A stretch of 37,094 nucleotides of DNA from Methanosarcinales archaeon (lineage in GTDB: Archaea > Halobacteriota > Methanosarcinia > Methanosarcinales > Methanogasteraceae). Location: the NCBI GenBank assembly GCA_030625165.1, contig DAOURL010000006.1:1-37094 (forward strand), in the 5' to 3' direction. Shown here one piece after another: positions 15,837-23,451 of the stretch. Below the pieces are notes generated by a model. The model was given only the letters and a program-made list of their open reading frames with translations. It had not been told where the DNA came from and did no database searches. Each line of letters opens with the position of its first letter. Within the stretch, counting starts at the first letter, position 1. A program made the position numbers and the translations under genes.

Positions 15837-16064
15837 CTAAAGCAGTTCAATCAGATCATCCTTCTCAAGTCCGGTCTGTTGGAGAATGTCGAGAAGTGTG
15901 CCTTTTGCAAGTTCCCTATGCAGTGGGACAACGGTTTTATAGGTTATTCCATGGGCGACCTTTTGAAGTGACACATGGCCCCCCCTCTGCCGCACTTCGA
16001 TAAAACCAGCTCGTTTCAGTGCAGCTATAAGTTTTTTACCCGATATGATGGGGAGCTTACGCAT
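15837..16064 (-). CDS. hicA: HicA-family toxin (putative mRNA interferase)
   Basis: MRKLPIISGKKLIAALKRAGFIEVRQRGGHVSLQK...VVPLHRELAKGTLLDILQQTGL. Confidence 0.92.
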   Translation of the reverse strand: MRKLPIISGKKLIAALKRAGFIEVRQRGGHVSLQKVAHGITYKTVVPLHRELAKGTLLDILQQTGLEKDDLIELL

Positions 16065-16272
16065 GGGCAACTTCAACTGTGGTCCAGAACGGTGTGGATG
16101 TCCCACTGGGCAGGTCATCTACACCAAAACTCTCGATATAAAGATCTATGGCTTCCTTGATGTTCGCCTGCGCTTCTTCAATGGACTCGCCCTGAGAAGT
16201 CACACCGAGCGCGGGGCATCTCGCAATAAAGAACTTGTCTTCCTTCACGATGGATACAATGAATGTTCCCAT
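16057..16272 (-). CDS. hicB: HicB-family antitoxin
   Basis: FIVSIVKEDKFFIARCPALGVTSQGESIEEAQANIKEAIDLYIE; overlaps hicA by 8 nt. Confidence 0.92.
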   Translation of the reverse strand: MGTFIVSIVKEDKFFIARCPALGVTSQGESIEEAQANIKEAIDLYIESFGVDDLPSGTSTPFWTTVEVAHA

Positions 16273-18673: not shown

Positions 18674-20716
18674 ATGGACAACACATTATATCTTGCGCCC
18701 GTGGCAGGCATTATCAGTCTGGTGTTTGCGGGCGTGTTTGCGTATCTCGTTTTGAAACAACCGACGGGTACAAAAGAGATGCAGGAGATCGCAGCGGCGA
18801 TACAGGAGGGTGCGATGGCGTATCTGAACCGCCAGTACAGAACGGTTGCAATCGTTGCGATCATACTTGCCGTCCTGATGTATGCCATGCTTGATGATGG
18901 GGCAAAGATCGCTTTCGGGTTCCTTGTCGGCGCAGTAGCATCCGCGTTGGCAGGATACATCGGCATGAATGTCTCGGTTCGCGCGAATGTGAGAACCGCA
19001 AACGCTGCAAAGGACGGTCTTGAAAAGGCACTCTCGATCGCATTCAGGGGTGGTGCGGTGACAGGGCTTGCAGTGGTTGGTCTTGCACTGCTCGGCACAA
19101 GCGGTTTTTACATACTGTACGGCGGGGTGCCGGAAAACGTCGATCTGATCGTCGGCTTTGCCTTTGGCGCAAGTCTGATCAGTCTCTTTGCGAGGGTCGG
19201 AGGCGGGATCTACACGAAAGCCGCTGATGTCGGCGCTGATCTCGTCGGCAAGGTGGAGGCAGGAATTCCGGAGGATGACCCCAGGAACGCGGCTGTGATT
19301 GCAGATAACGTCGGGGACAACGTCGGGGACTGCGCGGGTATGGGCGCGGATCTCTTCGAGACGTATGTGGTCACATCGCTTGCCGCGATGCTTCTTGGAG
19401 CGATTGTGGTCGCACAATACCCTTATGCGGTCACGTATCCACTGATTCTCGGATCGGTCGCGATTCTTGCATCGATAATTGCAATATTCTGCGTCAGACT
19501 CGACAAGAGCAAGAATATCATGCGTGCCCTTTACAAGGGTGTGGCGGCAGCGGCACTGATCTGTCTTGTGGCGTTTTATTTCGTAACCGAGTGGATGATG
19601 GGCGATATCAGATTCTGGTATGCGTCGATCGTCGGAATCGTGATCATGGTGCTGATCGTAATCATCACCGAGTATTACACAGCACTCAATTTCAGACCTG
19701 TGAAGGCGGTCGCACGCGCAGCTGAGACCGGTGCGGGCACAAATATCATATCAGGGTTAGCTATTGGTCTCGAAAGCACAGCGATGCCGGTTATCGTGAT
19801 CTGCGCAGGCATCCTGGCATCGTTTGCTGTGGTTGGCGGGATTGCAGATCCTGCGATCGGCGTGTATGGCATTGCAATAGCTGCGGCTGCGATGCTCTCC
19901 ACGACAGGGATCATCGTTGCCCTCGATTCGTACGGACCGATCACAGACAACGCAGGAGGCATCGCAGAGATGGCTTCGCTTCCAGCGAGCACGAGAGACG
20001 TGACCGATAAACTCGATGCCGTCGGAAACACCACGAAGGCGGTGACGAAAGGGTATGCGATCGGATCAGCCGCTCTTGGAGCGCTGGCGCTCTTTGCTGA
20101 TTACAGGCACAAGGTAGGGCTTGGTCCCGGCGAACTCGGTCTTGACAACCCGCTGGTACTGGTCGGGCTCTTCATTGGAGGACTCCTTCCGTTCCTGTTC
20201 AGCGCAGTTACGATGAATGCGGTCGGGAAAGCCGCTTTTAAGATCGTGGAAGAGGTAAGAAGGCAGTTTCGAGAGATCCCCGGAATCATGGAAGGGACGA
20301 CGAAGCCGGAGTACGGGAAAGCGGTTGACATCGTGACAAAAGCAGCGATCAACTCGATGGTGATCCCGGGCATCCTCGCAATCGGCGTTCCATTAATCGT
20401 CGGGATCTTGCTCGGCAAGGTTGCGCTCGGCGGTTTTCTGATCGGGATTATTGTTGTCGGGCTTTTGATGGCGCTATTTATGGCAAACAGCGGCGCTGCA
20501 TGGGATAACGCCAAGAAGTTAATCGAGGACGGTGCGCACGGCGGCAAGGGCTCTGAGGCACATAAGGCAGCGGTCGTTGGTGATACGGTCGGCGATCCGT
20601 TCAAGGACACGTCAGGACCTGCGCTAAATCCGCTCATCAAGGTGGTCAACATCATCGCGATACTCTTCGCCGCGATGTTCGGAACCGGACTTCTGTTTGG
20701 AGGAGGAATCCTCTGA
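18674..20716 (+). CDS. hppA: Membrane-bound proton-translocating pyrophosphatase, K+-independent type by motif
   Basis: [61 protein letters not shown]. Confidence 0.95.
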
Positions 20717-20801
20717 ACAGTCTTTTTTTCTGAGCGGGAAACCGTGTCGTGGACCTCAGAAGGTTCATATACCACTCCGTAAGCGCGATTTGGAATTCTA
20801 A

Positions 20802-20809
20802 CATTTCAG
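20802..20809. repeat. 8-bp target-site duplication, left copy (CATTTCAG)
   Basis: Perfect direct repeat with 21044-21051. Confidence 0.75.
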
Positions 20810-21043
20810 GTAACTACTCAGGTATGCTGATTGGTCTCCCGATTGCGATCCTGTATTTTCTGGCAAGAAAAATAACCGCGGAGGGCGCAAAGGAACGCAG
20901 AGCATTTAACCTGTTATCCCCCCTCCGCGCCCCTCTGCGTACTCTGCGGTTATATTCCGTGTTTGGTTACAGTATGCCTATGTCCCGGGTAGTTCCTGCA
21001 TAGTGAAGTCCCCCGATAGTGGTTTAGGTACTTGAGTAGTTAC
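20810..21043. mobile_element. Non-autonomous MITE-like element with IS66-like ends
   Basis: Terminal inverted repeats GTAACTACTCAGGTA (20810-20824) / TACTTGAGTAGTTAC (21029-21043), 14/15 identical; flanked by CATTTCAG duplications; no credible coding capacity. Confidence 0.75.
20872..20953. repeat. CGCAGAG-family imperfect inverted repeat
   Basis: ATAACCGCGGAGGGCGCAAAGGAACGCAGAG ... CTCCGCGCCCCTCTGCGTACTCTGCGGTTAT. Confidence 0.8.
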
Positions 21044-21051
21044 CATTTCAG
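21044..21051. repeat. 8-bp target-site duplication, right copy (CATTTCAG)
   Basis: Perfect direct repeat with 20802-20809. Confidence 0.75.
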
Positions 21052-21125
21052 AACATAGTTTTAGAGGACGGGATTGTTCATGCGAAATGATTTTATGCCT
21101 TCGTCGCTGTTCGCTACACCCACAG

Positions 21126-21161
21126 TCACGAATGCTCACGTTTAAACGAATCTCACGAATG
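21126..21161. repeat. ATTCGTG-family repeat, partial copy
   Basis: TCACGAATGCTCACGTTTAAACGAATCTCACGAATG. Confidence 0.7.
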
Positions 21162-21251
21162 TAGGGGGGTTGGTTGGCTATGAATGATCCGGACCGTGTT
21201 TGATGCATAAAGCAATCAATGCGCTGCCTGCACACACAACCATTCGACGTG

Positions 21252-22098: not shown

Positions 22099-23451
22099 AT
22101 GACCTGCCTGATCTTCGATCCATTCATGGGCGCATCCGGGGACATGATCATCGCGTCCTTAATCGATCTTGGAGCAAATCCCGTGCATATCAAAGAGATC
22201 ATGGAATCGGTGGCGCCAGTCACCGTGGATATCGAAAGGACTACGAAGAAAGGGATCTCTGCAACGCAGGTCCGCGTGTCAGAGATTGCAGACAAATCAA
22301 AAACCAGCACATATCCTGAGATCGTAGCAGATATCCGGTCGTCGGGATTACCAGATCCCATCACCAGAGACGCTCTCGCCATCTTCAGCCGCATCGCCTC
22401 GGCAGAATCGAGGGTTCACGGTGTAAGCGAGGACGAACTCCATCTCCACGAACTCGGGCAGGCAGATGCCATAGCAGATGTGGTTGGCGCATCTGCCGCG
22501 ATCCACGATCTCGCGCCTTCGAAGGTCTTCTGCGCCAGGATAGTTGCAGGCAGGGGGTTTGTGGATACTGCGCACGGGAGATGCCCGGTGCCGGCACCGG
22601 CAACGCTCGAGATCCTCGCAGGTTCCGGGCTTTCGTGGGAGTACGGGAGCATCGAGCATGAATTGCTGACCCCGACCGGTGCTGCGATACTCGCGCATCT
22701 GGCAGATCGGGCAGAACCCGGTGGCAGTGGGGGCAGTGGTGGTGGATGCGTCGCAACCGGTATCGGGTATGGGGCAGGGAAGGCGGATCTCGAGATTCCG
22801 AACGTACTGCGCGTCATCCGGTGCGAAGATGAGTGCCGGGGTCAGGGGCAGGGTCATGTCCATGGGCATATCCCTGGCAGGGGTGCGTATGCAGATATGG
22901 ATCGGGGCGGGGACGCATCCCTCGGGTGGGATGGTGTGGAGGTGCTCGAGACATCGGTCGATGACGTGACCGGTGAGGTGCTCGGCAACCTGATCGATGA
23001 ACTGATGGCGATGGGCGCTAATGATGCGATCGTGATCCCTGCGACGATGAAGAAAGGACGGAGCGGGCATCTGATCCAGGTGATCGCAAAACCCGGGGAC
23101 TCGGCACGGATCGCACGCAGGATCATCGAGGAGACCGGTTCGCTTGGCGTGCGGATCTCAGCCACCAAGCACAGGTTGATCGCAAAGCGGAGGATGGAGT
23201 CGGTCAGGATCGAGATCGATGGCGCGGAGTGGGATGCCGCGGTCAAGATAGCGACCGATGAAGACGGCTGCATCCTTTCCATATCAGCCGAGTTTGAGGA
23301 TGCGAAGACGATTGCGCAGAAGACAGGCGTGCCTGTGCGCGAGGTGATGCGCAGGATCGTGGATCTTGCATGGATCGTGAGAAAGCCCACGCCATCGGGG
23401 CGGAGTGTCACATTGCGCGGTGTTGAATCAATCACGAATGGGCACGAATAA
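22099..23451 (+). CDS. larC: Nickel-pincer cofactor biosynthesis protein LarC
   Basis: FDPFMGASGDMIIASLIDLGA; TDE-type LETSVDDVTGEVLGNLIDELM; VIPATMKKGRSGHLIQVI. LarC1 and LarC2 regions in one continuous frame. Confidence 0.9.
   Translation: MTCLIFDPFMGASGDMIIASLIDLGANPVHIKEIMESVAPVTVDIERTTKKGISATQVRVSEIADKSKTSTYPEIVADIRSSGLPDPITRDALAIFSRIASAESRVHGVSEDELHLHELGQADAIADVVGASAAIHDLAPSKVFCARIVAGRGFVDTAHGRCPVPAPATLEILAGSGLSWEYGSIEHELLTPTGAAILAHLADRAEPGGSGGSGGGCVATGIGYGAGKADLEIPNVLRVIRCEDECRGQGQGHVHGHIPGRGAYADMDRGGDASLGWDGVEVLETSVDDVTGEVLGNLIDELMAMGANDAIVIPATMKKGRSGHLIQVIAKPGDSARIARRIIEETGSLGVRISATKHRLIAKRRMESVRIEIDGAEWDAAVKIATDEDGCILSISAEFEDAKTIAQKTGVPVREVMRRIVDLAWIVRKPTPSGRSVTLRGVESITNGHE

Follow-up and report, generated by a model that had tools for sequence, protein, structure and literature searches.

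We examined a 37,094-nucleotide stretch of DNA from a Methanosarcinales archaeon (the window), in which the hppA gene (18674–20716; Pfam H_PPase) is followed, beginning 93 bp downstream, by a 234-bp element at 20810–21043. Elsewhere in the window lie a HicA-type toxin gene of a toxin–antitoxin pair on the minus strand (15840–16118; Pfam HicA_toxin) and a nickel insertion protein gene on the plus strand (22099–23448; Pfam Ni_insertion). Read directly from the sequence, the element and the repeats flanking it span 20802–21051 in the order CATTTCAG, GTAACTACTCAGGTA ... TACTTGAGTAGTTAC, CATTTCAG. The left TIR, GTAACTACTCAGGTA, occupies 20810–20824 on the plus strand, and the right TIR, which reads GTAACTACTCAAGTA on the minus strand, occupies 21029–21043; the two are identical at 14 of 15 positions, and both ends begin with 5′-GTAA. 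On either side of the element stands a perfect 8-bp repeat, CATTTCAG, with its left copy at 20802–20809 and its right copy at 21044–21051, as expected for a target duplication (TSD).

At 234 bp, which is below the ~600 bp that roughly bounds MITEs, and with no transposase gene inside, the element has the make-up of a non-autonomous MITE, an assignment that the comparison of copies described below also supports. The sole long plus-strand ORF that runs across it, of 84 amino acids (20749–21003), has no Pfam match. A first-pass annotation of the locus, made from the sequence alone, had claimed 15-bp TIRs matching at 14 of 15 positions, a perfect 8-bp direct repeat and the absence of an internal transposase; our reading of the sequence and of the crossing ORF bears out all three.

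The MITE is nested within an older dispersed repeat of ~160 bp downstream of hppA, which was the target of its insertion and which it divides into a left part (20768–20809) and a right part (21052–21168), both on the plus strand. This repeat has 28 matches in the host genome, many of them partial, and is matched in all eight of the eight genomes of the genus. Its 3′ half (GATTTTATGCC...CACGAAT) constitutes a sub-repeat that is more abundant than the whole.

A high-copy MITE family in the host and its relatives

The host assembly comprises 2.3 Mb in 258 contigs and is 86% complete. The exact TIR occurs in it at 101 ends, 48 in the forward and 53 in the reverse orientation, whereas the reversed control pattern does not occur in either (0 + 0). 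BLAST of the element against the host genome returned at least 45 matches, and at least 38 complete copies could be extracted, mostly of 234–237 bp. Mean pairwise identity was 91.5% among 15 aligned host copies, and the TIRs were conserved over 24 aligned copies. Both flanks could be read in 34 host copies; among these, the flanking octamers matched at all eight positions in 17 and at seven positions in 5; when flanks from different copies were paired as a null, 0.27% of the pairs reached seven or more matches. The octamer sequence itself differs between copies. Every mid-contig unpaired TIR that we examined in the host was accounted for by truncated and intact MITEs. Given the TIR counts (48 and 53 against none in the control), the TSD statistics and the empty site described below, the window element is not a chance arrangement. 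It belongs to a MITE family of high copy number; the search for further copies with the same ends, which the first-pass annotation had proposed, turned up many of them in the host and in its relatives.

We also recorded the setting of 20 host copies that have long ORFs on both sides. As judged with a crude ORF caller and without a proper control, none lay between divergent ORFs, 8 and 7 had tandem ORFs, and 5 lay between convergent ORFs. The uncontrolled count of 0/20 divergent settings hints that promoter regions are avoided by the MITE or that insertions there are selected against.

In a survey of 188 genomes from the order, the exact TIR was present in 15 of the 17 genomes of the host family and in 3 of the 171 others, with 1–2 matches each; one of these three, G036, has a recognisable partial copy of the MITE. 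The MITE family is thus all but restricted to a single archaeal family, which we infer from the named records of its members to be ANME-2c. Copies in G016, which belongs to another genus, are 94–96% identical to those of the host. In a relative, G013, we noticed a second repeat that has the exact TIR GTAACTACTCAGGTA and a different interior (TACTAATCGAGGATGA...) and that breaks contigs. It was seen at contig ends only (L164:2208, L165:2484, L166:2454 and L167:1–59), and may represent either a further MITE or the autonomous partner that is missing.

IS66 elements with matching ends

An HMM search did not detect the IS66 transposase (PF03050) in the host assembly, which is 86% complete, and the same search detected it in 12 of the 17 genomes of the host family. 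Searching the host at the protein level with a single IS66 transposase likewise returned nothing; this search had no positive control and adds little. Complete IS66 elements in the relatives encode a single transposase, which has DUF6444, zf-IS66 and DDE_Tnp_IS66 domains, and the IS66 elements of sister genomes have GTAACTACTCA at both ends, which is the same as the first 11 bp of the MITE TIR. One of them, of 1537 bp (L157:2911–4447), is flanked by a perfect 8-bp TSD, AATAATTT; several complete IS66 elements in the relatives have no clean TSD. An 8-bp duplication agrees with what is known of the family, as IS66 that had transposed in Frankia left 8-bp repeats at its insertion sites, and IS66 ends beginning GTAAGCG have been cited (PMC11946415).

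The likeness is confined to the outermost bases. Positions 12–15 of the TIR are GGTA or AGTA in the MITE versus mostly CCCC or CCTA in the IS66 elements, and when the MITE was compared with six complete IS66 elements, the match was restricted to 11–12 terminal bp and the interiors were unrelated. Since no similarity extends past the terminal bases, the MITE did not arise by deletion from any of the IS66 elements seen, and we rejected its origin as an internal-deletion derivative of these elements. We found no autonomous element carrying the exact 15-bp TIR, and IS66 elements of other subgroups (L082–L084, L086, L089 and others) had no recognisable paired GTAA ends with a TSD. The first-pass annotation had raised the prospect of a full IS66 copy with the same TIRs. 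This held in part: elements ending in GTAACTACTCA do exist in sister genomes, one of them with an 8-bp TSD, but what they have in common with the MITE is 11 bp and not 15.

The first-pass annotation had also regarded the element as mobilised by IS66, a proposal that the 11-bp ends and the 8-bp TSD favor and that the unrelated interiors and the lack of a detectable IS66 transposase in the host assembly weaken. On balance, the sequence features argue strongly that IS66 would have mobilised the MITE, and we infer cross-mobilisation through the outer bases as the most economical reading. We consider it very probable that this is a high-copy MITE of ANME-2c-type archaea and that an IS66-type transposase recognises its ends in trans, with 8-bp duplications as the result. 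A single-gene (TnpC-only) IS66-type DDE transposase would recognise the ends of the ~234–237-bp MITE in trans and would make an 8-bp staggered cut at insertion, giving rise to the 8-bp target duplications. Matching of the outer ~11 bp alone would presumably suffice, and the enzyme may have been lost from the host by now or may be located in the unassembled ~14% of its genome. It is an evenly balanced question whether, beyond this, the IS66 enzyme of ANME-2c reads a very short end (~11 bp) and the MITE has persisted longer or spread further than the autonomous elements in this genome.

Another transposase family that also gives 8-bp duplications might instead have moved the MITE, its 11-bp likeness to IS66 then being convergent or incidental. 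Such a history would fit the full 15-bp TIR without an autonomous partner, the failure to detect an IS66 transposase in the host and the differing subterminal sequences of the MITE and the IS66 elements; moreover, at least one further DDE transposase (PF01609, IS1634-like) is encoded by the host. However, the 11 identical bp stand exactly at both IS66 ends, in the same archaeal family and together with an equal 8-bp duplication, which makes coincidence very unlikely. Nor does the PF01609 transposase qualify as the partner: its gene is not surrounded by GTAACTACTCA ends, and its contig has just a truncated MITE further on. We thus regard movement by another family as improbable. As a separate observation, host contig C185 has fragments (L072:1680–2427) that resemble the reverse transcriptase of a group II intron and are adjoined by an IS1634-like transposase (L072:244–1689) and a truncated MITE copy.

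Empty sites and the internal hairpin

For 11 host copies, we joined the flanks, removed one TSD and searched the relatives with the resulting sequence. Eight of the sites (L048, L034, L037, L042, L043, L049, L056 and L058) were found uninterrupted with a single TSD at 90–99% identity. The insertion at L048 splits a gene with SLFN_AlbA_2, HATPase_c_4 and winged-helix domains (an AlbA_2-type regulator), whose halves continue in frame once the flanks are joined; the uninterrupted site lies in a genome of a different genus and is 97% identical. The insertion at L056 appears to sit in a stretch that resembles an IS200/IS605 transposase gene.

For the window copy, no empty site emerged when the region 3′ of hppA was compared directly with sister genomes, since similarity between the intergenic sequences ends ~40 bp short of the insertion. 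The enclosing dispersed repeat, by its copies in same-genus genomes, supplied one: there it continues across the site, where L215 has one CATTTCAG and L214 has AATTTCAG. An empty site bearing CATTTCAG once, as foreseen by the first-pass annotation, is thus present in a genome of the same genus, and the total of empty sites, the window copy included, is nine.

An imperfect internal palindrome, ATAACCGCGGAGGGCGC ... CTCTGCGGTTAT (20872–20955), forms the core of a long hairpin, and the element folds far more stably than shuffled sequences do (z = −5.4 as RNA and −5.2 as DNA). This fold, together with the position 93 bp downstream of hppA, would suit a non-mobile intergenic RNA or regulatory element, such as a hairpin terminator of hppA, that had been spread or inherited as a conserved sequence. 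Against it, the 8-bp duplications vary among copies, relatives have empty sites, one insertion is intragenic, and two sister genomes (L143 and L146) have no such element directly downstream of hppA. Covariation over 24 copies, moreover, lends no support to selection on the RNA fold: of the 58 pairs predicted, just one has a two-sided compensatory change. The empty sites refute an RNA or regulatory element as the main explanation, and we give it hardly any credence; a secondary effect of the MITE on transcription is possible. Stretches of the palindrome of ~80 bp also occur without MITE ends (L070:773–850 and L071:4791–4869), and given these stand-alone occurrences the MITE may have taken up an independent palindromic repeat of the CCGCAGAG type. 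Finally, an assembly or binning artefact, in which a repeat was randomly joined to contigs, might be suspected from the many listed TIR places near contig ends, which are typical of assembly-breaking repeats, but it is extremely unlikely, as copies inside contigs have intact and differing TSDs and relatives that were assembled separately share the MITE family and contain the corresponding empty sites.

Relation to known MITEs and IS66 elements

Although the element is genuine and thoroughly documented, it belongs to an ordinary class of mobile DNA and leaves the understanding of how MITEs work unchanged. What it adds is a clear record, for uncultured methane-oxidising archaea, of a family-wide MITE, with a likely transposase family, IS66, to name. 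Its copies help to account for breaks in metagenome assemblies of ANME-2c-type archaea, and its insertions are markers of recent insertion between close ANME-2c lineages. Our literature search on MITEs and IS66 in archaea and on MITEs or transposition in ANME-2c found no prior description among the papers searched.

Prokaryotic MITEs that have been reviewed include those of Sulfolobus, Haloquadratum and Acinetobacter, and IS66 is unmentioned in that review (PMC10969869). Like the window MITE, prokaryotic MITEs are short and transposase-less, have TIRs and target duplications and reach tens of copies; they are mobilised in trans, as the window MITE very probably is. The present host, by contrast with those of prokaryotic MITEs generally, is an uncultured methanotrophic archaeon of the ANME-2c type.

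The IS66 elements of ANME-2c genomes are TnpC-only and, in their organisation, ISBst12-like. These single-gene elements (for example, L157:2911–4447) resemble the MITE in their GTAACTACTCA ends, their 8-bp duplication and their occurrence in the same host family. They differ from it in their length of ~1.5–1.8 kb, in having a transposase gene, in bases 12–15 and in their interior. Classic three-gene IS66 elements were not seen in this analysis. As known from Proteobacteria, they are like the MITE in their 5′-GTAA ends and 8-bp duplications (PMC11946415), but unlike it they have three genes (TnpA/TnpB/TnpC), ends of the form GTAAGCG... and different subterminal ends.
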